Shown here: piece after piece, positions 13,817-62,013 of the stretch | Layout of the letters: each line of letters opens with the position of its first letter | How positions within the stretch are numbered: position 1 is the first letter of the stretch | Assembly (NCBI GenBank): GCA_026770025.1 | Contig: JAMXDE010000005.1 | Coordinates: 3,472,001 to 3,536,000, forward strand | Length of the DNA: 64,000 nucleotides | From: Craspedostauros australis | Lineage: Eukaryota; Bacillariophyta; Bacillariophyceae; Mastogloiales; Achnanthaceae | Reading direction: 5' to 3' | Made by a program: the position numbers and the translations under genes | Notes under the pieces: model-generated | The model's database searches: none | Told to the model about the DNA's origin: nothing | Seen by the model: the letters and a program-made list of their open reading frames with translations, nothing else

Positions 13817-16800
13817 CTATGCCATGTCGTACGTATCAAAGGTTGGATTGGCACTGTCTTGCGATTTTTCGTCTGCTTCCAAATCAGACGCATCGTACTC
13901 TCCCTCAGCATTTGCGTCCTGGCTTCTTCCGTCCCCGCCACCTTCCCCATCTAGAGCTTGCCCATGTTCATTCTCATGCTCGTGTTCGTTGTTTTGGTGC
14001 ATCGACACGCACTCTTGCTGCTGCTGATGTTGCTGCTTGGGTTGGTGGTGATTGCCTGGGGCTTTTTGAGGAGATGGCGGCTGCTGCTGCTGGGTTTGAT
14101 GTAATATCCCAGCTGGCACCGAGGCAGCATGGTGCTGCCCATGCCGACTGTGTTGGTCGCCCTGGTCTTGTGCCGTGCCTTGAGCTTGATGCTGTAGCTG
14201 CTGTGGCGTATGCGGATGCTCTGCTGAGTGCTGTTGGGTGGCATTCTCTTCTTGCGGAGGCGCAGTTGAAGACCACCGCGGCAAATTACCGAGATGCTCC
14301 TGACCGCCGCGCCCTCCACCCACGCCCACACCAGCAGCCTCCACGTACGCGAAACCGCGAAAGTCTGTGTTTTGCGGTCCCTCTGGTTGTGGTGGCTGTG
14401 GCAGGGTGGCGCTGGTTCCGATTATCCTGCCGTCGCCATAATACTGGCCTGGCTGCCCCTCCGTGGGCGGGTGTTGCTGGAGCCGCTGTGGTTGGTTTGC
14501 CTGTTCATGATACACGGGTTGGATAGTTTGCGATGGCATCGGAATGCCCCCACCCACCATCACAACCATGTGCTGGGGACTCTGCCCCTGCGGTTCTGCG
14601 TGATGTAGCTGCTGCTGCGGTTGCAGTGCCTGTATCTGCTGCTGACCATGGTGTTGCACCTGCTGCAAGCTCGGCGGTTGGTGTTGTTGTTGGGGCTGCT
14701 GTGATGCCTGCGAATCGTCAATGGCGACAGACCCACCCAAGTGCGATTGATGGTTGCTGTGGTGCACTGGCTGATGTTGTTGTTGATGGTGCTGCATTGT
14801 GGAGACAGTCAAATGGTGACGTGCGTACTGTGACTGATGCGGTTGTTGGAACGACGCGTGAGATTGGTGCGGATGCTGGTGTGGCACACGGCCGTGTTGC
14901 ATTTGCGGCTGGCCTTGCATACCGTGATGAACGGGGTGTCGTTGCACTTGTATCTGCTGCGGCTGCGCCTGTCGGGGTTGCTGTGGCAAGTTGTGATGTG
15001 GCAGATGCGAGTGCTGGAGTTGAGCATCCGCGGGATGGTCGCGATGATGTTGCTGGTGACTTTGGTGTTGTTGGTGTTGCTGATGTGGATGCAGCGGTTG
15101 TTGATATTGATGTGGCTGATGCTGCTGCTGCTGCTGCTGCGAGTGTTGGAGCTGAGCATCGATTGGATGACCACGATGATCCAGCATGGGACGTCCGAAC
15201 TGTGTAGGATGTTGAAGAGTGATGTGGACTGGGTTCTGTGCCTTCATTGGTGCCATCGCTGGTGTCTCCGGACCCTGTGTCTCCGCATGCATCCCTCCTG
15301 CTTCCATCGAGGTTTTTTGCTTCTTGTTGGGATTCCTCGGTTGTTGATGAGCCGCTCGTATCTCGCCTTGCATGCCTTGATTGGTTGGCGCTGTACCAAC
15401 TGCTTCGGGCACAGGGGCAGCATGTGCTTCCGCGACAGCCGCAGCGATGGCAGCCGCTGCTCCGCTCCCCCAGCTGAACCCAACATCTTCAAGCTTCTTG
15501 ATCCTCTCTTGCGTGAGTTGTGATGGTCTACCCCGCTGCTTCAGCGAGTACTGCGCCCTCTGCTTTCCTACCCATCGCCCGAGTGCCCGGTTAGGTGCGT
15601 AATTCACGGGGACGTTAGTGGTGCCAGTCTCTCGACAGTACTCGACGAGCTCCTGGAACCGCGCATTCCAACCGACGGCACGAGGTGCCATCCGCCACTC
15701 AAATCCAACCGAATTCAATTGGGCCATGCGTTCTGGACTCAACACTGTACGGTACGTGTGTTTGCGATGGTTCATCACTTTGCCCGTCTTTCGGAGCTCA
15801 TACTCTCGATACTGCTCCCGCTGCGATTTCACCCACAAACCGAGCTTGCCCGATGACTGTGGCACATTCGTGTGCCCGTGCTGGAGCTTGAACGACAGCA
15901 GGGCCTGAAAGTTGAGGTTCCACCGCGACTGGCTGTCGAAAGGGACTCGGTCCCAGCAAAACTCTATGCTGTTGAGCACCGCGAGTCTGTCTGGAGTGAG
16001 CAAGTAGTTGGTGGCACCTCGTTGATTGGCAACCGCGTTAGATGTAAGTAGCGCTGGATGGATGGGCGGGCGTTCTGGTTCTTTGGCTTCCTCGGATTCC
16101 ATCTGTGACTTGCTGCCAGCGTCTTGCTTTGTGGTATTGACCACATATCCTGCTGAGTTTCCGTGAAACGCTTGCTGATCACCAGGAGCACTGAACGGTG
16201 GATGAGACGGGTTCATCGTCGCCTCTCGTTGTGACCCATCGTTGGGCATCCTGCCCTCTTGTCCAGCGCCTTGCTGTGCATGGCCTTGGTGATACTGAAC
16301 GGGGTTCGGCGCATGCGCCACCTGCGCAGGCCCTGAATCCGTCATTGATGGGTCCGCAAAATGCCCACATGGCTGCTGCTGCTGCTGCTGCTGCACATAA
16401 TCTTGATTGTATTGATGACCTAGTTGCTGTTGCATCTGCTGCTGCTGCTGTTGTTCCTGTGGCTGCACGTTGCCACTATTTGTTGTGGAATTCGGTCGGC
16501 CGTCAGCCCCGGGGGTTGTTCTCGTACTGATGTTCTCGTTTGGAGTAGCGATGGCACAAGCGCTTGCGTCGCCAACGGCAGGTCTCGGAACGGACGTGGT
16601 GGAAGAAGACTGGCGAAGACCGTAGTATTGGGCTTGCGCCGCTGCGCGTTTCCTCTTCGACTGTGGTTTGGTTGGCCATTTGAGTTTCGAGGATCGCTCG
16701 ACAAGCTCCGCGTAGTGCGCTCGCAGTTGGGTAACCCATTTGGATAAGGTCTTGAGGGTCTTTTGCGTGTACTTGGGGACCTTGCAATGTCCATGCTTGG

Positions 16801-18298
16801 CTCGAAAGACGAGCAATTCGAACAACATGTTGTTGAAACTTTGGCCTTGGTTGCCTCCTGGCCCACCCTTGCGTTTTCGTTTGGGAGGTGGCGCCGCTGC
16901 GGCTGCAGCCACCGCGGCCGCTATCGCTGCCTCTCCTCTGGCTGTTGCTGTTGCTGTCGTCGTTGTTGTTGCTGGTGCTGCTACTGTTGTGGCTGCGGCT
17001 GTCGGCTTCGGCTGGTACATCGGTGGGTAAGCAGATGGAGTTGCGCCATATGCGGGTGGCATCCCGACTCCCGGTCCATACGAGGGTCCCATCGCAGGAT
17101 GAATCTGCGCGTGCCCAGGTAGGGCGGCCATGGGAACTTGCCCGACCCTTGGCCGCATGTCCATCCTTCCAGGCGGCAGCACCGAGGGAGGGGGGTGAGC
17201 GTCGGCGGCAGGATATGCTTTGGGCCGTGCAGGTGCATACATGTGATTCGAGTGCAACGGGACAGAAACTGTCCCAGCGACTGGAGTCCCACCTTCTCGG
17301 CTATTTGCTTGTCCTTCGGGCAATAATTGCAAGCCAGCTGTGTCCGGGGCGTAGGCTGGGCGTTGGTCGTGAGGCGCGGCTGGTTGCTTTGGATCCGGTT
17401 GATCAAGTGAAGACGATGCTCCTTCCCCTGCTTTTCCTGGCGGTGGTACCGAGGTTTGCTCGGATGCAGGGGATGGTTCCGTCCGTGATGCCGTAGGTTG
17501 CTGCTGCTGTTGCGCTTGTTGTGGTTGCGCTTGTTGTTGCGGTTGCGCTTGCGGTTGTACTTGTTGGTGTTGACCTTGCCTACCGCTGGTGGGTTGTAGA
17601 CCAGCCTTGCTGGCATGGTCATTCGGATGCTTTGCAGTATCAGTGGATGCATGAACTTCGTCTGCCTGGGTGTCGCTGGAGTCTCGAGGAGGTTCAGTAG
17701 CGTCGCCCTGCGCTTCGCCCGGCTTGATTGGCGAAGGTATCAAGGACAAAGGCTGCGACGAAGTCATCCGTACGTGTATTCCAGGTTGGGTCTCTGTAGA
17801 TGCCATCGTTTCGTTTGATGCCACAGCGTCTTGCGTTTCTGTGTGTGCCGTGGCTGCAGCCGAAGGAGCTTGTTTTGTTTTCAATGCAACCACACTTCCA
17901 CCCTCCGCAGCATCCACCGCAGCATCAGCATTGTCTCTGTCACCATCGCCTTTCGTGGCACGCTCGTCCATGCCTTGATCGATGCTCGTGCCTTCGTTGC
18001 CAACAAAGGGACTGGCATCCACAGCAGGAGCATTCGTGCTGACCGATGCAACGACCTGCCCACCATCCATCAGACTCTTCGCATCGTTCGCGACGCCATC
18101 AGTGCCGCCATTGAGATCGGTTGGCTGCGTCATTGGTGAATCATCCGCAGATGCTGACTCAGAAGCCGGTTCAACGAGCTGATCGGCATCTTGTTTGGCA
18201 TCCTGTTCGGTCGCTGCACCCCCGTTGGCGCCCCCATTGGCACCACCATTGGCTGTTTCCTCCTTCATCGCTCGGTTGCTGGATGAGATCGACCGCAC
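13817..18298 (-). CDS. Glutamine-rich protein with three helicase-associated (HA) domains
   Basis: A single ORF of 1493 residues from 18298 (an alternative Met lies ten codons on). Three segments match the helicase-associated domain, a short helical repeat with the signature W...F..L..F...HGH..VP......L..WV..QR..Y: about residues 487-560 (HGHCKVP..., KWVTQLRAHY), 785-865 (HGHTNVP, LGLWVKSQREQY, then LNSVGFEW) and 869-940 (TGTTNVP, LGRWVGKQRAQY, then LEDVGFSW). The last two are adjacent. The first stands 220 residues upstream and is followed by a Lys/Arg patch. HA domains are common in stramenopile algae, often without any helicase domain, and their role is thought to be nucleic-acid binding. 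No helicase motif is present here. The remaining 80% is Gln/His/Pro/Ala-rich and disordered, suggesting a transcriptional or chromatin regulator (inference). Confidence 0.85.
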   Translation of the reverse strand: MRSISSSNRAMKEETANGGANGGANGGAATEQDAKQDADQLVEPASESASADDSPMTQPTDLNGGTDGVANDAKSLMDGGQVVASVSTNAPAVDASPFVGNEGTSIDQGMDERATKGDGDRDNADAAVDAAEGGSVVALKTKQAPSAAATAHTETQDAVASNETMASTETQPGIHVRMTSSQPLSLIPSPIKPGEAQGDATEPPRDSSDTQADEVHASTDTAKHPNDHASKAGLQPTSGRQGQHQQVQPQAQPQQQAQPQQAQQQQQPTASRTEPSPASEQTSVPPPGKAGEGASSSLDQPDPKQPAAPHDQRPAYAPDTAGLQLLPEGQANSREGGTPVAGTVSVPLHSNHMYAPARPKAYPAADAHPPPSVLPPGRMDMRPRVGQVPMAALPGHAQIHPAMGPSYGPGVGMPPAYGATPSAYPPMYQPKPTAAATTVAAPATTTTTATATARGEAAIAAAVAAAAAAPPPKRKRKGGPGGNQGQSFNNMLFELLVFRAKHGHCKVPKYTQKTLKTLSKWVTQLRAHYAELVERSSKLKWPTKPQSKRKRAAAQAQYYGLRQSSSTTSVPRPAVGDASACAIATPNENISTRTTPGADGRPNSTTNSGNVQPQEQQQQQQMQQQLGHQYNQDYVQQQQQQQPCGHFADPSMTDSGPAQVAHAPNPVQYHQGHAQQGAGQEGRMPNDGSQREATMNPSHPPFSAPGDQQAFHGNSAGYVVNTTKQDAGSKSQMESEEAKEPERPPIHPALLTSNAVANQRGATNYLLTPDRLAVLNSIEFCWDRVPFDSQSRWNLNFQALLSFKLQHGHTNVPQSSGKLGLWVKSQREQYREYELRKTGKVMNHRKHTYRTVLSPERMAQLNSVGFEWRMAPRAVGWNARFQELVEYCRETGTTNVPVNYAPNRALGRWVGKQRAQYSLKQRGRPSQLTQERIKKLEDVGFSWGSGAAAAIAAAVAEAHAAPVPEAVGTAPTNQGMQGEIRAAHQQPRNPNKKQKTSMEAGGMHAETQGPETPAMAPMKAQNPVHITLQHPTQFGRPMLDHRGHPIDAQLQHSQQQQQQHQPHQYQQPLHPHQQHQQHQSHQQHHRDHPADAQLQHSHLPHHNLPQQPRQAQPQQIQVQRHPVHHGMQGQPQMQHGRVPHQHPHQSHASFQQPHQSQYARHHLTVSTMQHHQQQHQPVHHSNHQSHLGGSVAIDDSQASQQPQQQHQPPSLQQVQHHGQQQIQALQPQQQLHHAEPQGQSPQHMVVMVGGGIPMPSQTIQPVYHEQANQPQRLQQHPPTEGQPGQYYGDGRIIGTSATLPQPPQPEGPQNTDFRGFAYVEAAGVGVGGGRGGQEHLGNLPRWSSTAPPQEENATQQHSAEHPHTPQQLQHQAQGTAQDQGDQHSRHGQHHAASVPAGILHQTQQQQPPSPQKAPGNHHQPKQQHQQQQECVSMHQNNEHEHENEHGQALDGEGGGDGRSQDANAEGEYDASDLEADEKSQDSANPTFDTYDMA

Positions 18299-35483: not shown

Positions 35484-38400
35484 TCACAACGTCGTTTGCG
35501 CTACCGCGCCTGCCACGTTCATTCGCTCCGGAGGCCTCATCTGGTGGATGCTCACCATGTCGTCGGTCTTCACGTTCGAAACGTCCTGCGGAGTGATGAA
35601 GATGAACTGGCGGTTGCGGAACTCCCTGCCCAGCTCCACCAGCTGATCGAGCACCAGCTTGCGCGTCACCGGGTCCAGGAACACATCGAATTCGTCCATC
35701 ACCCGGAAGGGACATTCGAGTCCCTCTCCCATCGCCAGGAGGAGCGCGATGGTCGTGAAGGAGCGTTCCCCACCGCTCAAAGCCCCCACGTCCTTCTGCT
35801 GGCTGTTCTGATCGTTGGAGTCCTTTTGCACCACCAGCTCCAGCGAGCCCTCCGTGCGCTCTTCCTGTCCCGGGTGCCGGAACTTCACCGTCCCGGACGA
35901 GCCCTTCATGTTCAGAATCTCGTCGAACCGTCTGCAAGTGGCACCGGCGATGTGCCCACGGAAACCCAGCCATCGCTTGCGGCGAATCGCGAGATCATTA
36001 TGCAACGGCGCCGTCTTGCGGCAGATCTCGTCGATTGCCGTCTGCTTGTCGGCCAGCAACTTCGATGCACGAGCATAACGCGTGTAGATAACATCGGCAT
36101 CCTCGCCGTCCAGCTGTCGCCGCTCCGTCTCCTCGGCGATCTTGGCTTTGGAACGATCTATGCGCGCCTCGTAATACGGCTTGTCCTTGCCGGGGTCGTT
36201 GGGCTCGATCCCTTCGAGATCCGACTCCGTGGGCTCCCTCGCAACGTACTCCGACTGCTGCGTGCTGCCGTCGCCCTGGCTGCTCTCGTAGGCGTTCTCC
36301 TCGATGCAGCGGAACGTGAGCAGACGCGCATCCTGCAGCGCCTTGTCCACCCTCTCGCTTTCCTTGTCGATGTTCTGCTGCCGCTGCTGGATGATCTCTT
36401 CGTACTGCCGCACCTTCTCGCGCTTCTTGTTGAGTCGTTCCTGATTCTGCGACGAGTCCTGCACCAGCTTGGACAGCTGCTCTTCGGATTGCTTCAGATC
36501 GACGATCACCTTCTCGTTGCGAGCGCGCACTTCGTCGAGCTGGCGCTTGGCCGCATCTATGGGACCTTGGTATTCGCCGACCTGCTGCGCCAGCGAGGCG
36601 CTGTCGTTCCGCAGTTTCTCCAGCTTGCCTTCCGCCTCCGCGACGTCCCTCTCGAGCTCGGATGTGTCGGTGTCGAAGGTTTCGGCTTCCGTGGCCGTGT
36701 TGCGCAGCTCCTGAATTCTGGTCTCGATCTGATCGATGAGCTTGTTCTGCTTCTGCGTCGCTCGCTTCTTCAAGTTCCACTCCCTCTGGTAGTTCATGTG
36801 CTCGGCTTCCAACCGTGCGTACTCGCGGCCGGCTGTCTGGAGTTCGTTGTCGGCGGTCTGCAGCTCGAGCTGGGCCTCCTGGATGGCGGAGGTCCTGTCC
36901 ACGCCGATGGTCCTCTTGAGCTTCTTTTCGTTGGATATCATGGAGACGTTGCCGTTGGAGACGTTCCACATGTCACCCTGCGGCAGGAAGTAGACCTGCT
37001 TGATCTTGCCCCTGATGCGGTATCGGTTGGTGGATTCGTCGCGCTGCAGAAGAAGCTGCTCGCTCTCCTGCTTGGATCTGCAGACGGCACGTTGCTCGAT
37101 CATGAACTGATCCACGAGGCAATTGAAGACGAGGTCGTTGTCGACGCTGAGAGTGGTGGCGACTGTTTCGACGCCTTCGACAGGCGGAGGCGGGACGCGG
37201 TACCGGGCGTCGACCTTGACCTGGATGACACCGCAGTCGTTGCGGCAGCCGCAATCCTTGCGTATCTTCTGGAATATCTTTCGATCGTGGTCGTTCGTGA
37301 CGAGGAACCTGTCGAGGAACCTTGACCCCAGCGCGAGCTCTGCCAGCGATGCGTATTGCTCCTTGCCGGCGGCGACCTTGAGATGCGCGCCGATGGGACC
37401 GATGACGGGTCCGCGGAAGTGTTGGCTCTGACGATCGGCCATCTCGCGCACCCTGGTGCAGTTGCGTCCGAAGAGGGCCAGGTCCGACGCTGCCCCCGGT
37501 GACTGCTGCAAGGAGCTGAGAGTGGCCCGGATGGCCTGCATCCGCTGCTTGCACGAATTCTCGTTGTGACGCGCCTGCTGCACGTGCGGATCGAGCTCGT
37601 CGTACTTGCGCAATCCTTCCGTGACCTCCTGCCGCAACCGCACGCTCTCTTGCTTGACAGTCTCGAGCTCCGCCTCCTTGTTCTGGAGCTCCATGGTGAT
37701 GCGCTTGCGTTCTGACTCCTTGGATCCCTGCTTGTCGAGGATTTCCTTGCGCTTGGCATCGAGAGCCCGCTTGGCATGCAGGAGGCTTTGCGCCTCACGC
37801 TGCATCTCCCTGTCGGTGCGCTGCTGCTGATGCTCTATGTCCTTCTTCGGTCTCTGGGCCTCCTTGTAGGCTGTCTCGAGCTGCGACTTGAGCTGCGCCT
37901 GATCCTGCGCCTCCTTGATGAGACTCTCTATCTGCGCACGCACCTTGAGCTCCTCCGTGTTGGGAGCCGCCGACGCCTCCTCCGCCTGGCTGAGCTCAAG
38001 CTGCTTCCTTGATGCTTTCTCTCTGAATTTTGCCATGGCCTGTCACAGCAGATACAATTAGTGAGCGCACAGCATAGCATAGTATGGCGTGGGAGATGTG
38101 TTTGTTTGTTTGTTTGTTTGTTTGTTTGTTTGTGCATGATTGTGAGCATGTGTGTTATTGACAGGTTGTTTTGTTGAGAACTTCATGAACAACTGTCGGA
38201 TGGTACAAGAGCAGCAGCACAACACAACGTACTAAAACAATGCATTCGCAACGCAATACCTGCCAGCAACAGCAGCAGTAACAACAGCAGTATCGAACAT
38301 ATAAACTCACATCCTGCTCAGCCGTGAACTTGCGGACTGCCTCCGCGTGATGCGCCCAGGCGTACTTGATGTGATAGTCACGCAGCTTGGCCTTGAGCTT

Positions 38401-39570
38401 GTCGAGCTCCTTGTGCTTTTGCCACTGCTCCTTGGTGTCCTTGACGCGATCGGCCAAGGGAAGGAGATCGCGCTTCATGCGGTCCGTCTGCTTGGCCATG
38501 TCCAGGAGGTCGTCCATGGTGGCGGCGAAGGTCCTGTCAATGTGCTCTAGCTCCGTCGCCTTCATGAAGAACTTGTACTTCTCGCGGTCGCTGCCGGTGA
38601 GGAACTTCTTGGCCTCCTCCTGGTCGAGGATGGCGATGGGGTTCTCCACCTGTATGTTGAGATGGTCGAGGAGGCTGTAGAGGTCCTTCTTGCTGCGTGA
38701 CTGCTCTTGGCCGTCCGCATCGTAGAGCTTGAACCCGTTGTAGCCGCCGCGCACGGCGATGGTGCGCTCGACCGTGATCTTGTCCTTGTATAGGTCCGGC
38801 CTGTATCCGTCCTTGCCTCCGTTGAGGATGGTGACGGAGACCTTGGCGCAGGCGCAGTTGGCCCCCTTGCGCACGAGCTCCTTGAGGTTGCGGGCTCGGT
38901 TGGTGCGTCTGGCGCCCGCCCCCAAGCAGATCTGGATGGCCGCGAGGATGGCGGACTTGCCGGATCCGTTCTGGCCGTAGATGAAGTTGATGTTGCGATT
39001 GAGGACGATCCTGAACTTGCGATGGCACATGAAGTTCTCCACGTAGATCTTGGTGATGATGCCCACCTCGGGTGGGTTGGATCTGTCCAAGTCTGTCTCC
39101 GCTGCGCTGCTGCTCGTTCCTGCCTCCGCGTGCCTCTGGATCTTGCGAACGAGGCGTTCGATGTGGTCTTCACCTTGTCTTTCAACTTGTGCTTGTCTTT
39201 CAACTTGTGCTTGTCTTTCACCTTGTGCTTCACCTTGTCCTTGACTGTGTTGTCTGTCATCATTGTCGTTGTCATTGTCGTTGTCATCATCGTTGTCATC
39301 ATCATCGTCCTCCACCCCGCTGCCGCTGGCTGAAGTGGATGCAGGCGTGACAGACTTGGTCTGCGTTGTTGCATGCGATGAGGACTGCGACTGGCTTTCG
39401 TCTATCCGGCGACGCTTCGTTGGGGACTCCCCAGTTGCATCCTCCGCTCCAGCCGCTGGGACTGCGACTGCAACTGCCACTGCGACTGCCTCGTCTCCCT
39501 CCGTCTCCATCTCGAGTTCTGGTGTGCCCTCGCTCTGTGCTTCCTTTGCTTGGGCCTTCCTCGTTGACAT
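35484..39570 (-). CDS. SMC6: SMC6, ATPase core of the SMC5/6 complex, two exons
   Basis: Minus-strand exons 39570-38311 and 38039-35484 are joined by a phase-0 GTGAGT...GACAG intron of 271 nt and give 1271 residues. The N-terminal ATPase half has IYVENFMCHRKF and Walker A GQNGSGKSAIL (about residues 196-206), then ILDQEEAKKFLTGS, the Q-loop-side motif typical of SMC6. A coiled coil leads to the hinge (GPIGAHLKV.........ALG..LD.FLV.NDHD). A second coiled coil returns to the C-terminal half with signature LSGGERSF and Walker B FRVMDEFDVFLD, ending DDMVSIHQMRPPER. SMC5/6 entraps DNA and acts in recombination repair and replication-fork stability in the nucleus. The N-terminal extension of about 160 residues is unusual: a VA repeat, Asp/Asn runs and a QVERQ-type repeat. 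Confidence 0.95.
38101..38132. repeat. (TTTG)8 microsatellite in the SMC6 intron
   Basis: Eight copies of TTTG on the plus strand within the single SMC6 intron. Confidence 0.95.
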
Positions 39571-54404: not shown

Positions 54405-57400
54405 ATGAATGATGACAATGTGCCTCTCGACCCGCCCGAGCCTGATGGGAATCGACGGATGGGACAAGAAGGGAATGCCCAACATGATCGTCAGACCACC
54501 ACACTGAGTTCTCCTCAAGACATGGCTCAGAGATGGCAACAGCCACCGCAGCACCATCAGCAAATACAAGGTCAGCAACAGCATCAGCATCAGCATCAGC
54601 ATCAGCAGCAACGGAAGAGCCAGCACGGATATCACAATCAGAACCAGCTTGCGATTGCCGAGGATTTGCTCCGGGTAGATCATCGGCTTGACGACGAAAG
54701 TTCAACGTCGGCATCGCAACGAATGTGGACCAATGAAATGACAAACGCCGTTCCGCTGTTTACATCGACACCTGAGAGCAAGTTGCCATTGGGAATGCAA
54801 CGCACAGGCCAAAAGTCAGACAAAGACAAAGACTCCAGTACCTTGTCATGTGCCGATGCAAGTGCGCCAATGACATTCCCGCAAAAGGTAAGAGTGTGTA
54901 CACGTCAATTATCGTTCCCACGTTGACGGCCACGTTCACGGCCACGTTCACGGCCACGTTCACGAGCATTCTTGCCACAGCACTTGGCTGTCGCATGCGT
55001 ACGAGTAGCACCAATACGCAAATACGATCTCTGCAAGGACGAGTGCTTGTACGAGGGCCATCAGTCACAACCTCAGGACCCCATTGTATTGGCTTCTTGT
55101 CGCATCAAGGATTGCAGATACGTTGATGTACAAATGCTTCGTGCCACGCAAGACGAGTGCCGAATGAGGCAGTCCATACGAATGCTGTTGTCGACACTTG
55201 CGGATCTCACGAGATGCCCAGCGATGGTGCCATGATATTGATATTGGCTGGGCAATCCAACACGCCGCCGTGGTACACAGCACTATTCACATCTCACGCC
55301 TTCCGACGCGTTTGTACATGCCGACACTCTCCTGCCCTTGTCCATGACCTTGACCTTGCCTTTGTTGTTGGAACCAACATGTTTGATAACAAAGATGATG
55401 GAGATTCTCTCCACAGAGAAGTTCTCTGACATCATATCATGGCTACCACACGGCAAAGGGTTCATCATCTTGCAGAAGCACCGTTTTGCAACCGAGGTGA
55501 TGCCACACTACTTCAGCAAGAAAGCAAAATTCACGAGCTTCACGGTGAGTCATACGTTCAAGTATTGGGATGGCACTATTCGCAACTTGTGGGGCTTCAT
55601 GTTCTTTGGCTTTCTCATGTACTCGTATGCTGCTTGTACCATACTGCATGATGCAAAAGGTATCATGGCGTTGTGTTGGCTGCTGAAGTGTTCACTGGTG
55701 TGTCATCCTGTGACGGAATGGGTATGGTCTTCCTGTGCGTACCTCCTTCATCAGATACTTGCGTGGACAGCCAGATCGAAGACGCATCGTACTCACTTGC
55801 TTTGCCTATTGGCGTTCTTCAACTCTTTTTGACCGAATGCTTGCTTCTGCCCGCTCCCATCTTCATTGGAACGCTCGGTAACAATGGACCACCCGCAGCG
55901 AAAGCTCAACAGATGGTAAGCAAGCAGAAGCAACTTGACTCGCAACTGCGTTGTACTATCGCGCTTCATGTCTTGAACAAACTGTTGCTGTTGATGCTGC
56001 TGTTGCTGCTTCTATTGGTTTCCATCATCAGGGAGTTTGCCTCGGGGTTGAGCCTGTACTGCAATGAAATCCTCCCCTCAAGTCCATCTATGGGAACGCT
56101 CATGCGCACGTTAAATCTTCAATACGTTATAACATGAGTCACAAAGACCTTGGAAGCACGTCAGCTGCGCCTGTGAACGATGGAAGTCAGGTTGCAGTCT
56201 CCCAGGCTAACACTTCGCATGCATTGCGGTTTGATGCTCCATTGCGATCCGGCCCAGTGAAAGATATTCGGACGCTACGGCACAGAGATGACACCGACAA
56301 GTCAGTTCCTGTTTTTTCTGCTGTGCATCAATTTATCACTTCGCATGACTAACTCTTCAATTCCAATGTGACTGATGCGCTGATGCACGTGTGTGTGCGC
56401 GCGTGTACGTGTATGCCCTGCCATCTGACTCGGACGCCATCTTTGTTTTGAAATCGCCGTTTGGGATGATGCTCGGTTGGCACTCAAATCTGTGCCAAAT
56501 TGGCATTCCTGCTACCTGTGGTACATGTGCATTCATCGTCACGCCATCCTGTTGCCGTGATTGGTGTGCATGGCATGGTATGCACTCTTGCGCAACGAAT
56601 GAAGGAGTTTCACACGAGTAACCAGAGGGCCAGAAACGGGCGCCTACTACCACCCGATGTTCCAACGAGGCAATTTGCGCCTCTGTTTGCAAATGAATTG
56701 CATCGGCTCAAAAGAGCCTCAGCAGATCGAGCCCATGGATCCTATCGCATTGGGCCTCATCGTCCCGCAGGGCGGCCGCAACACTCGGTTGACGCCGCAA
56801 CGCGAACAAGATCAAGAGCAGATGCAGCCGCAGCTGCAGAACCAGGGAGCGTTGCACGTGGGGTTGGAGACAGGGATGCAGGGAGGACTGCAGGCAGAGA
56901 TGCAAGCCCAAATACAAACACAAGCGCAGGCACAAACACCAATGAAAATGTATCCGGGAACACAGCCGCAGAGACAGGCAGAGATGCAAACGCCAGCAGG
57001 CGCACAAGCACCAACCCAAGCCCACCAAATGCCCAACGCGCCCCAAGACCTAGAATCGTCTCAGCAACTCGTGGGCCCAACGGCGGATATCACAGCCCAA
57101 ACGATGCTGCAACTACAATCAAGGCTGGCGCAGGGGCGAACGAGAGCACCGGATGAGATGGGGGCGCAGGGCCAGCTTGGCGCCTCCAACCTCAATCGCA
57201 CGATGTTCGATGAGAACGTGTCATCCGCGAACCATATTCTCCAGATGGCTCTGGAAAGGCGAGTTCACGGTTATGGTCAGCACGTAGAGCATGCACCACA
57301 ATCACAGGGACAGCACAGCCGACAACAACAGCAGCAGCAGCCGCAGCAGCAGCAGCAGCATCAGCTCTCACTTCCGCTGCAGTTACATCTCCAGGAAATG

Positions 57401-58348
57401 CAAAACCAAGCACATCAAGTCGGAGTGCCACAGCATGGTAGTAATCCCAATGGCAGCCGCATCGGCAGCTCTGGCGTCCGTGCTGATGGCCAGCCGCAGC
57501 CAGATGTGAGTTGCGATTACCCTCCAATCACGGCCATGATGGGTCAGTATTCGCTCGATCAACTCTTGAGGCGGCAGTATGGGTTTGACAAGGGGAAGGG
57601 GGGCACCCAGGGAGGATCACATCCGTTCGATGGCATCACCGACCTCGACCTGCGATTGCAGCAGCATGCGGCCCAAAGGATCGCATCGTCTGGAAGGCAG
57701 ACTGATCTCCACGGGAGAATGGAAGGAATCGACCGCAGTAGCTTTCGCGGTGGGGTTCCTTCGGATGGTGTGGATGGAACGAACCGAACACCTGGGGTTG
57801 GGGTCAACCCATCACTCGCGGGATTCTTTGGAACTGGTTCAGCTGACGCCATATCAGTTTCTGGTCCGTTGACCGGAGCAGGCGCTGTCGGTCCTTTGGC
57901 TGGCGAGAATCCAACGCTGGCGGCTACCGCCGCCGCTGCTGCTGCCTCGTCGTCGTCGTCGTCTGGACAGGAGCCGCGCCAGATTCAGTTGCTGCAGGGA
58001 TCAGCGTGGCAACAATCGATGCAACAATCGATGCAGCAGACATGGCAGGAGACGCAGCAGGCAGCTGCTTCGGACAGTCTTGGGGGATTGCCGGGTTCGT
58101 CTATCTCCATGCCGTACCAAATCCTGCAGTCGCACAGGCAAGGACGTGACGTGTACGCCGAGCCCAGGCTGGAGCCGAATCGAGACTTGCTAATGATGGT
58201 GGCCAACATGGACCCTCAGATTCAGCCGCAGAATCGTCATCAGCAACAACAGCAGCAGCAGCAGCAGCAGCAACAGGGTGGAAATCTATTCCAAGACAAC
58301 TCGCAACGAGAGCACGAACAATATGGGCGGCATCAACAGCAGGAGTAA
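54405..58348 (+). CDS. HSF: Heat-shock-factor-type transcription factor (HSF), four exons including a 17-nt microexon
   Basis: Exons 54405-54887, 55395-55544, 55899-55915 and 56605-58348 give 797 residues. The HSF DNA-binding domain is split over all four: FPQK (exon 1, residues 158-161); MMEILSTEKFSDIISWLPHG, then FIILQKHRFATEVMPHYF and KFTSFT (exon 2); RKLNRW (microexon, completed by the first base of exon 4); SFTRVTRGPETGAYYHPMFQRGN (exon 4, split here by composition only after FTRV). Junctions are GTAAGA-AAAG, GTGAGT-GCAG and GTAAGC-GAAG. The reading frame is kept at every join and each joint restores the family order, including the recognition helix SF.RKLNRW. The residue after RKLNRW is Ser where Gly is usual. 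The N-terminus (residues 1-156) and the long C-terminus are Gln-rich. HSFs bind nGAAn arrays and drive stress or developmental genes; the family is greatly expanded in stramenopile algae. Confidence 0.88.
54928..54963. repeat. 12-nt tandem repeat in HSF intron 1
   Basis: Three copies of GGCCACGTTCAC, about 40 nt after the donor site. Confidence 0.9.
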
Positions 58349-59270
58349 CAAAAAGCAGCCGCCGACATCATAGGCGTACAGCGCGACGCAGTGATCGAAC
58401 ATATTCCGAACACCAGTTTGTCGTCGGTTGGTTGGCGATATTGTCGTGAAGACAGATGCCCTTGGCCAACATGTACAAGGCTGGTGGAGTAACAATGCAA
58501 TCTAATACAATAGTATTCTATTATATTCTACAATAGAATAAAGCAGAGTACCATGCTAATATAGCTATTCTATTATATATTTTAATAGGCTCTAATACAG
58601 AACCTTATGCAAGCAACAATAGTATTAGCAGCATTACGCTCGTGCGTGCCTGGCATTCCGATGACGGTTGTGTGCACCTCTCGAGTGCCCGCGCGAGGAC
58701 TTGTCGCGTTGGAGGTTGATGTTTGTGTTTCTGCACATTTTCCGTTGTTCGGGTTTTGGCTTTTTGCGAACGCATTTTGTGAGGCATACCCGTGTCCAGT
58801 CGTGATGACGACATTGATGACGTCATGTTCAAGCAGAGAGCGCGAGCGAACAGAGGCATTTTCACGATCTGACGCTTGAGTTGAAGTTCGATCCGTGGTT
58901 GACTCATGCGATCAAATGTGTTGGAACAGCCAAGCAAAATCGTGGATGGTGCTCGTTGTGTTTGGTCGTCGTTGTCGTTGTTGGTGGTGGTGGTGGTGGT
59001 GGTGGCGTCACGTGGAAGAGAGAAAAGACGAGAAGGTCTCCCCAACATCACTCCGACACCCGCGCTAGAACAGGTCACAGCCAAACAAGCGCATCAGCAA
59101 ACACATCAAGAGATTCGATCAACACGTATTACTACATTGACGGACACATCAACAAGTCACCAAGGGCCACACGAGGATCGCATCTCGTCTCATCAAACCT
59201 CATCCAGGCTCATCACAGCAACAACTTACGATCTATAATATTATTAAAAGACAAAGAAGACAAAGACACA
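58349..59270. other. HSF 3' flank and IspH promoter region
   Basis: The two genes are in tandem. About 58500-58615 is strongly AT-rich with repeated AATAGTATTCTAT/TCTAATACA units, a plausible HSF 3' end. A (GGT)n run at about 58982-59005 precedes the IspH start. The open frame upstream of 59271 lacks a targeting sequence and is not taken as coding. Confidence 0.55.
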
Positions 59271-62013
59271 ATGAAGTTCACAACATCCGCAGTCTTGCTG
59301 GTGGCCAGCAGCGCCTGCGCGGAAGCATTCGTGATTCCCACTCCGAGCTCCAGCGCATCCGCGGTCGCCTCTGCTCCAAGCACCAGCGCTCTGTTCTCCA
59401 CCACAGAAAAGGAGCAGGAGGAGAGGCGCCGCACCAAGAAGGCCGCGCGCCTCGATTTCTTCAAGAGCGATCAGTTCCATCGCAGGGGATTCAAGGAAGT
59501 GCGCGATCAGGTGGAGCAGAGCGTGCAGGATCAGTACAATTCGGATCTCGTGCAGGAGCTCCGCAGCAACGAGTACTCCATCGACAGGGATGGCGTCAAG
59601 GTTTACCTTGCCAAGGTGTGTCTCTAGATCTCAGATCTGTGGAGGTTGCCTCTTTGGGTGCCCATCTTGGTGCTTCTTGGGATGCCTTTGTTCATGTCGA
59701 TCTGCGATTGCTTTCTCTCCTTCCATTCAGGTCCCATTCAGATCGCATTCAAGGCAGAATTGAAGGCAAAAGTGAAGGATTCTTGCTTGCAGGCCTCGGT
59801 TTGGCGCCAAAAGTGGCAATTCATGGCTCCTCCCATCTTACCATGCAGATCATGGTGTCAAATCGAGGAACGCAGCAACTGTGCTATTGCCTTCAGAACA
59901 CCGAATTCGTTCAGTGATGGCCTCTTGGAATGGAATGCAATTCAATGCGATGCGACGGAGTTGGATTTCCTTCAACAATCTTGTGGGAGTCTCCAAATTC
60001 ATCGCATCAACGAATATCAAACCATACCATACCATACCATACCATGCAACACCCTGTTCTACTGCCTTCCTTTCTTCCTCTTTTGGATCTTTTCGGCCAT
60101 CAACTCACGAGATAACCAGCAGCGTTGCCACGTTGACAATGCGATTTGCCATATCCAACATGATATCCCGCGATATGCCTTCCGTTCGGCTTCATATTCT
60201 CACTTCATGGTCACTTCTCATGTTCTCCTCTTCTTCGTCGGCGCTCTTGTGGTATGCCCCTACATCGCTTGATGGGACGGCGCGCTTACACATCATGGCA
60301 TATCACGCTGCATTGCATACGCCGCATCACGCAACCACCACCCATTGCCATTTCCGTTCGCATTAAAAAGGATTTCGGATTCTGCTGGGGCGTCGAGCGC
60401 AGCATCGCGCTGGCCTACGAGGCCGTGGAACACTTCCCAGACCGCAAGCTGCACATCACCAACGAGCTCATTCACAACCCGGAGGTCAATGATCGTCTCA
60501 CCGACATGAACGTCAACCTCATCGAGAAGCTGGGCGAGGGCAAGAAGGACTTCGAGGTCGTGGAGGATGGCGACGTCGTCATCCTTCCCGCCTTCGGTGC
60601 TTCCCTCGAGGAGATGGAATACTTCGACAAGAAGGTCAGTGCTGGTATCAATTGTGTGGGGGGATTCCAATGTTGTCGCATCTCAGTGTATCACCGCGTT
60701 GGCACGTCAGTTCATGCAACAAATGGAGTGTGCAGAGGTCACATGGATTCCCTGTCATCGTATCGCGCGCTGATCGAGGTTGTTGCCACCCATGCACTAT
60801 ATGGTATGTCTGCCCATGTGCGCTGAACACTTGCCCTCACAACACTTCATCACCAAAACGCGTCACCCTACCATCCCGATTGACCGGCCGCGCAGAATGT
60901 GGAGATCGTTGACACCACCTGCCCATGGGTGTCCAAGGTCTGGAACTCCGTCGACGCCCACCAGCGCAAGGGACACACCTCCATCATCCACGGCAAGTAC
61001 GCCCACGAGGAGACCGTCGCCACCACCAGCTTCTGCGAGGACTACATCTGCGTCAAGAACATGAAAGAGGCCGAGATGGTCGCCGACTACATCGCCAACG
61101 GAGGCGACAAGGAGGCCTTCCTCAAGCACTTCGAGAACGCCATCAGCGAAGGATTCGATCCAGACACCATGCTCCAGAAGGTCGGTCTCGCCAACCAGAC
61201 CACCATGTACAAGAAGGAGACCAGGGCCATCGGACAGCTCTTCCAGACCACCCTCATCAAGAAGTACGGGCCAGGCAACATCAGCGAGCATTACTTGGAG
61301 TTCGACACCATCTGCGATGCCACGCAGGTAAGTCTGCCCATGTCGCAATTTTCGCTGCGGTTGTCGTTGCTGTTGTCGTTGCTGTTGCTGCTATTCTCTT
61401 CCCTTACTTGTTGGATACCGCACGTGGGCCGTTGCGCATCGGGCGTCAATCACGTTCAACGCCGGCATTAGCGATAGACGGAGAGAGTCAAGTTCATTTA
61501 TTCATTTGTTTGCATCCTTGCACGCATGGCCATCTCACCGTCACATCAATCACACCTGCCGTGTGTTTATTCACCTATTTTTCTTTGAATGAATATTTGA
61601 TCGGTTGATGGAATGATGGCGTACCTCCAACGAAATACAATGCAATGCATTACAATGGCCAACAGGAACGACAAGACGCCGTGGCCGAGTTGGTCGACAA
61701 CGCAGAGAAGCTCGGTTTGGACTTCATCCTCGTCGTTGGAGGTTGGGATTCATCAAACACCGCCCACTTGCTCGAGATCCCACAGATGGCCGGTGTCCGA
61801 TCCTTCCACATCAACAGAGCGGAGTGCATCTCGGCGGACAACACTATCACGCACAGGAACACGAAAGGCGAGATCGAGACGGAGAAATTCCTCCTGAATA
61901 CCGACAAGGACGTCGTCATGGGTGTCACATCCGGAGCATCCACCCCGGATGCCGCAGTCCAGGATGCTCTCAGCCAGATCTTCTTGCTCAAGAAGGCCTC
62001 CGAGGCCAACTAA
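59271..62013 (+). CDS. ispH: Plastid 4-hydroxy-3-methylbut-2-enyl diphosphate reductase (IspH/HDR), four exons
   Basis: Exons 59271-59615, 60371-60634, 60896-61327 and 61666-62013, all phase 0, give 462 residues. IspH is the last enzyme of the MEP pathway. It reduces HMBPP to IPP and DMAPP with a [4Fe-4S] cluster in the plastid stroma. The three cluster cysteines are present: FGFCWGVER (Cys about 120), VDTTCPWV (about 212) and FDTICDATQ (about 343). Other family marks are [37 protein letters not shown] and [10 protein letters not shown]. The form is the plant/cyanobacterial type, with the long central insert. The N-terminus [25 protein letters not shown] is a signal peptide with an A-x-A-F cleavage site followed by a Ser/Ala transit peptide, the bipartite presequence of a complex red plastid. 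The ATG at 59271 is chosen because it begins that signal. Confidence 0.96.
60022..60044. repeat. (CCATA)n microsatellite in IspH intron 1
   Basis: Four to five copies of CCATA. Confidence 0.85.

Follow-up and report, generated by a model that had tools for sequence, protein, structure and literature searches.

Among the closest described counterparts of the exon reported here is a 9-nt microexon of plant AP2 genes, a tiny exon that likewise encodes core residues of a DNA-binding domain, that is found with RNA support in many flowering-plant AP2 genes, and that is often missed in annotation (PMC8831610). Heat shock factors (HSFs) offer a second point of comparison, as splicing around the recognition helix of the HSF domain is described for plants: Arabidopsis HSFA2 holds a heat-induced 31-nt cryptic mini-exon within its intron, a poison exon that carries a stop (PMC8483784), and plant S-HSFs arise by retention of an intron of the DNA-binding domain (DBD) that lies at the boundary between helix 3 and the wing, mostly under heat (PMC12582567). 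The DBD intron of two-exon poplar HSFs is reported to be phase 0 (PMC4948027). DNA contact itself depends on a short RQLN motif. According to HSF1 and HSF2 structures, an invariant arginine of this motif (Arg71 and Arg63, respectively) contacts the G of GAA in bidentate fashion, and the contact of its asparagine (Asn74 and Asn66) is solvent-mediated (PMC8379338); RQLN is described as conserved in 24 species, and mutation of its arginine (R-to-A) as abolishing DNA binding in two maize HSFs (PMC12251660).

The 64-kb stretch of Craspedostauros australis DNA analyzed here (the window) contains a member of an expanded HSF family that very probably carries a real coding microexon, constitutively spliced in the order exon 1, exon 2, microexon, exon 4. 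Plant AP2 sets a precedent for coding microexons within DNA-binding domains; the HSF case differs in concerning one gene in one genome, another domain family and another lineage, and in being read from genomic sequence. It differs also from the Arabidopsis HSFA2 mini-exon, in that the 17 nt are coding and are required by the domain. The main text of the AP2 microexon paper contains neither "HSF" nor "heat shock" (PMC8831610), and searches on microexons together with HSFs, diatoms or stramenopiles, with most subscription papers outside their reach, listed no title on this topic.

All parts of the gene lie on the + strand. Exon 1 (483 nt, 54405..54887) encodes a Q-rich N-terminus from an assumed start codon and ends with FPQK in phase 0. 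Intron 1 (507 nt, GTAAGA...AAG, 54888..55394) interrupts the HSF domain, separating FPQK from MMEIL, and exon 2 (150 nt, 55395..55544) continues the domain as far as KFTSFT, again in phase 0. Intron 2 (354 nt, GTGAGT...CAG, 55545..55898), placed between T and R, is followed by the microexon CGAAAGCTCAACAGATG (17 nt, 55899..55915), which encodes the recognition-helix core and was delimited by domain fit and spliced profile alignment. Intron 3 (689 nt, GTAAGC...AAG, 55916..56604) interrupts a Trp codon in phase 2. Exon 4 (1744 nt, 56605..58348), which begins with GAGTTTCACACG directly after AAG, supplies the remaining HSF domain (SFTRVTRGPETGAYYHPMFQRG) and a long Q-rich C-terminus that ends at a TAA stop. 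Joined, the four exons form an open frame of 797 aa, counted from the assumed start codon, that encodes a heat shock factor.

An initial annotation of this DNA had claimed a 17-nt exon at 55899-55915, flanked by GCAG and GTAAGC, and the sequence bears this out: CGAAAGCTCAACAGATG occurs there, on the + strand, and nowhere else in the 64-kb window, with CCGCAG on its 5' side and GTAAGC on its 3' side. The claimed exact fit to its neighbors also holds, as exon 2 ends at 55544 in phase 0 and exon 4 resumes at 56605 after phase 2; the single base taken from exon 4 rebuilds the Trp codon as proposed, so that CGA AAG CTC AAC AGA TG/G AGT reads RKLNRWS across the junction. The exon is thus internal, bordered by CAG and GT, and in frame at both junctions, and at 17 nt it falls well within the 51 nt or less by which coding microexons are defined (PMC12409088).

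The encoded residues, RKLNR plus two bases of W, constitute an RQLN-type core equivalent to HSF1 R71 to Y76. RKLNRW aligns with RQLNMY of HSF4 (6j6v), and RKLN also with RQLN of 5d5w; K replaces Q, and the microexon product keeps both the Arg and the Asn of RQLN. When the window gene is aligned with four paralogs, TRKL.RW does not vary. What the microexon encodes is thus nearly coextensive with the DNA-contacting motif, K standing in for Q. The annotation's description of it as the DNA-contacting helix stands for the core, but not for the whole helix, whose start (SFT) comes from exon 2.

Of four splice paths compared with the Pfam HSF profile (PF00447), this one gives the fullest match. With the microexon included and exon 4 beginning at 56605, the spliced model scores 74.4 bits over profile positions 1-96, above the Pfam cut-off of 22 and in keeping with an HSF-type transcription factor; skipping of the microexon lowers the match to 44.1 bits (profile 1-53), and retention of intron 2 lowers it to 43.9 bits (profile 1-53). 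An alternative start of exon 4, for which the annotation had given no coordinate, at 56032 (CAG/GGAGTTTGCC) keeps the frame and was rejected, as it leads into non-HSF sequence, ends at 251 aa and scores 60.6 bits (profile 1-63). A candidate alternative or duplicate recognition helix within intron 2 (IRNLWGF, ~55590) was likewise discarded, since the Pfam match does not reach into it. Intron 2 does hold 95 open in-frame codons beyond exon 2 (55545-55832), with a hydrophobic translation, before the in-frame stop at 55830-55832 that would terminate a retained form; this open stretch is probably due to chance.

The same structure emerged from a splice-aware alignment to a position matrix built from 27 domain rows of 26 of the 30 full-length paralog loci, the window gene not being counted, although the laying out of the matrix columns on the window-gene protein introduces a mild circularity. 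The alignment recovered the same four exons unprompted, including exactly 55899-55915, with a score of 177.8 bits, compared with 153.8 bits for the best spliced path when the microexon was masked. Across 1000 dinucleotide shuffles of the intron, consensus splice scoring gave a mean of 155.7 and a maximum of 166.7 bits. In case the consensus splice bonus had decided this result, flat GT/AG scoring was run as well; the real sequence reached 173.1 bits against a maximum of 168.0 among 2000 shuffles, the first 1000 of which reuse the seeds of the consensus scoring, such that the two sets are not independent.

These scores bear on the possibility that an intron fragment simply happens to read RKLNR. 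A degenerate pattern (AG + R[K/Q]L[N/H]x + TG + GTNNG) has one match in the 74.8-Mb genome, which is the microexon site, and its reversal, used as a control, has none in the same 74.8 Mb. Because composition alone predicts 0.5 matches genome-wide, this uniqueness proves little, and a match somewhere in ~75 Mb would not be a rare event. The match sits, however, exactly where the domain would otherwise have a gap at these residues, fits the frame at either end and is accompanied by splice sites; the expectation for that 1060-nt interval is 4e-6, and none of the 2000 shuffles scores as well as the real sequence. We consider a chance origin of the reading extremely improbable.

The window gene belongs to a large family, with 118 PF00447 matches genome-wide (one gene may hold several); such expansion is known in diatoms, with 68 HSFs reported for P. 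tricornutum (PMC12899012). Of these matches, 105 run unbroken through profile positions 50-62, which argues against a T/R intron with a separate RKLNR exon in any of them. The other 13 comprise the window gene and 12 matches in loci L045, L050 (twice), L052, L055, L056 and L059-L064, whose aligner paths contain no such microexon. Judged by profile 50-62 continuity and by the aligned loci, no second such microexon was found among the 118 matches. A continuous match does not strictly guarantee a continuous exon, because one locus (L065) has an unbroken match (profile 1-63) and yet was assigned an intron at position 57 by the aligner, with a weak score of 55.4; heavily split HSF genes might also evade the six-frame search.

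Intron positions were compared across 65 aligned loci, a set that includes the window gene (L058) and holds one region twice (L011, L057). Near the recognition helix, introns fall at position 53 phase 1 in L052, at 56 phase 0 in L059, at 57 phase 0 in L050, L056, L060, L061, L062 and L065, at 60 phase 0 in L063, and at 60 phase 2 in L045 and L064. Within HSF codons 53-60, each of 11 other loci thus carries one intron and the window gene alone carries two (one at 55 phase 0, the other at 60 phase 2); the same 8-codon stretch is interrupted at six different positions or phases in the HSF genes of this genome, or five if the window gene is left out. Intron 3 of the window gene is identical in position and phase to the intron of L045 and L064, and the T/R position of intron 2 recurs in no other of the 65 aligned loci. 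The position of intron 1 is common to L026, where it was placed by the aligner, and to L019, where it was read by eye; before the LM.. motif, the aligner missed this intron of L019 and a suspected one of L025.

Phylogenetic analysis groups the seven genes of RKL-RW type (the window gene, L019, L025, L026, L028, L045 and L064) as one clade with support of 97/96, in a tree of 89 columns whose bootstrap had not settled and whose inner order for this clade is poorly resolved. The tree comprises 57 of the 65 loci; those dropped (L001, L002, L011, L037, L038, L057, L059 and L065) are partial or weak, except for L001 and L002, which are full but have divergent domains. L045 and L064 resemble the window gene in clade membership and in having the RKLNR/W phase-2 intron in the identical place, but, unlike the window gene, they are without the T/R intron and hold RKLNR within a normal exon. 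A further clade member, at C37:213422, has a match that runs past TGG and then contains TAA, and probably has the Trp intron too.

Some members of the family may derive from duplication. The best genome match of the spliced domain (63%) is L019, which carries SFTRKLNRWGFTRVTRGPE in one exon; this RKLNRW-type HSF domain (G000:C3:3544216-3544473) lies ~14 kb past the end of the window gene, just outside the window, and is possibly a local duplicate of it. Elsewhere, HSF matches of equal or near-equal score occur as pairs on opposite strands of the same contig, ~26 to 82 kb apart (G000:C10:1640840/1695854; C8:2003722/2085807; C64:124489/167120; C2:981271/1006951), an arrangement that suggests inverted duplications. 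The L060 and L061 domains are identical, and those of L009 and L012 nearly so.

The distribution of introns points to a straightforward origin for the microexon. The most likely, and simplest, history would have an old Trp intron kept in three RKL-RW members and a T/R intron in the window gene alone. Under this scheme, the older intron in the Trp codon, common to the paralogs, would already have closed an exon after RKLNRW, and a later, gene-specific intron between T and R would have cut off the last 17 nt of that exon. Joining of exons 1 and 2, the microexon and exon 4 would then yield a complete HSF DNA-binding domain, to which the microexon would contribute the counterparts of the Arg and Asn through which HSFs contact the heat shock element. 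Loss of the T/R intron from the other loci, in place of a gain in the window gene, is also conceivable, as is a slide of the commoner position-57 phase-0 intron by six bases to the T/R position. We infer the order of these intron events, the presence of the microexon in mature mRNA and its constitutive inclusion from genomic sequence.

An introner origin of intron 2 was considered and rejected, as no near-identical copy was found in the genome. A genome search with intron 2, in which simple repeats and very common words were skipped, matched only intron 2 itself, and one with the region 55380-56700 matched that region and a single 35-nt stretch within a tract rich in CTG/TTG. Relatives were also sought in collections that hold no algae, which returned 8 prokaryotic and 18 viral pattern stretches, none confirmed as an HSF relative.

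Some splice sites of the window gene are unusual. Two of its three acceptors read AAG (55392-55394 and 56602-56604), and that of the microexon is a canonical CAG. For the other HSF loci, 33 introns were inferred, a tally that leaves out the window gene itself (L058) and two loci whose paths were judged spurious (L008, L057); these introns have CAG (27) or TAG (6) acceptors and no AAG, and flat scoring agrees; near-duplicate loci are among them (L060/L061, L053/L054), such that not all are independent. The microexon donor, GTAAGC, is acceptable, although it scores above just 3 of these 33 donors. Intron 3, at 689 nt, compares with a median of 296 nt (range 189-1346) in the other HSF introns. 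Given its two AAG acceptors, the gene might be inefficiently spliced or in decay. If it were a decaying paralog, the odd splice sites would reflect lost constraint and the microexon would be a remnant, perhaps inefficiently spliced; the 2/3 versus 0/33 incidence of AAG and the confinement of the T/R intron to this one aligned locus fit such a course. Nonetheless, the 797-aa frame is open, no residue that is invariant among the five aligned genes has been lost, and splicing restores the conserved Trp codon, and we hold decay to be very unlikely.

Regulated splicing is a further reading of this gene. As had been claimed in the initial annotation, skipping of the microexon would delete the motif and shift the frame, giving a predicted 394-aa product that is out of frame after residue 211; retention of intron 2 would give 306 aa, and retention of intron 3 would give 217 aa, ending in RKLNRW because TG/GTAA reads Trp-stop, with the in-frame TAA at 55917-55919. 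If splicing of the microexon acted as a switch on DNA binding, as the annotation had suggested, with inclusion set by heat or another cue, the 394-aa form, having neither recognition-helix core nor wing, would be expected not to bind DNA. The loss of DNA-contacting residues and of frame would suit such a switch, and the heat-induced mini-exon of Arabidopsis HSFA2 offers a parallel (PMC8483784); that mini-exon, however, is a poison exon that is included and not a coding exon that is skipped. The canonical CAG of the microexon acceptor also speaks against regulated skipping, and exon skipping is reported to be rarer than intron retention in P. tricornutum (PMC5859163), as it is for plant microexons (PMC8831610). 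Altogether, regulated skipping appears very improbable.

Regulated retention of intron 3 would instead yield the 217-aa protein, its domain ending after the recognition helix and before the wing in the manner of plant S-HSFs. Besides the stop, the AAG acceptor, the low rank of the donor and the length of the intron are in line with this reading, as is the origin of plant S-HSFs, mostly under heat, from a retained DBD intron at helix 3/wing (PMC12582567). Intron 3 falls at roughly the helix 3/wing boundary, in phase 2 within the Trp codon, against the phase 0 reported for two-exon poplar HSFs (PMC4948027). Yet a stop arises automatically at any TG/GTRA phase-2 boundary and needs no selection, and because intron 1 also ends in AAG, weak acceptors are not peculiar to intron 3 and may reflect a gene that is drifting, not one that is regulated. 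We regard regulated retention as unlikely. If splicing is regulated at all, retention of intron 3 seems a better candidate than skipping, because a weak acceptor is combined with a stop directly after RKLNRW, as in the short plant HSFs. The broader proposal of a splicing-controlled HSF, in which incomplete splicing by either route would leave a short form without wing or helix and the S-HSF strategy of plants would have been reached independently by an alga, is unlikely. Plain constitutive splicing of the window gene is the most likely state.

Annotation pipelines readily overlook short exons, even ones that encode the functional core of a domain, and if these 17 nt were missed, an intact HSF would appear truncated. 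The locus would also be a tractable example of a microexon born from an intron gained beside an older one; regulated splicing, if true, would add a parallel to plant S-HSFs.

Other frames were noted in the window. Downstream of the HSF gene on the + strand, an open reading frame at 58881-59627 has no Pfam match, and the start of the frame at 59271-59627 resembles a plastid-targeting leader. On the - strand, a 1493-aa open frame at 13817-18298 has matches to the Helicase associated (HA) domain in three stretches. Adjoining frames at 35484-39570, also on the - strand, match SMC_N (just under the Pfam cut-off) and AAA_23, and perhaps represent one split SMC/Rad50-like gene.
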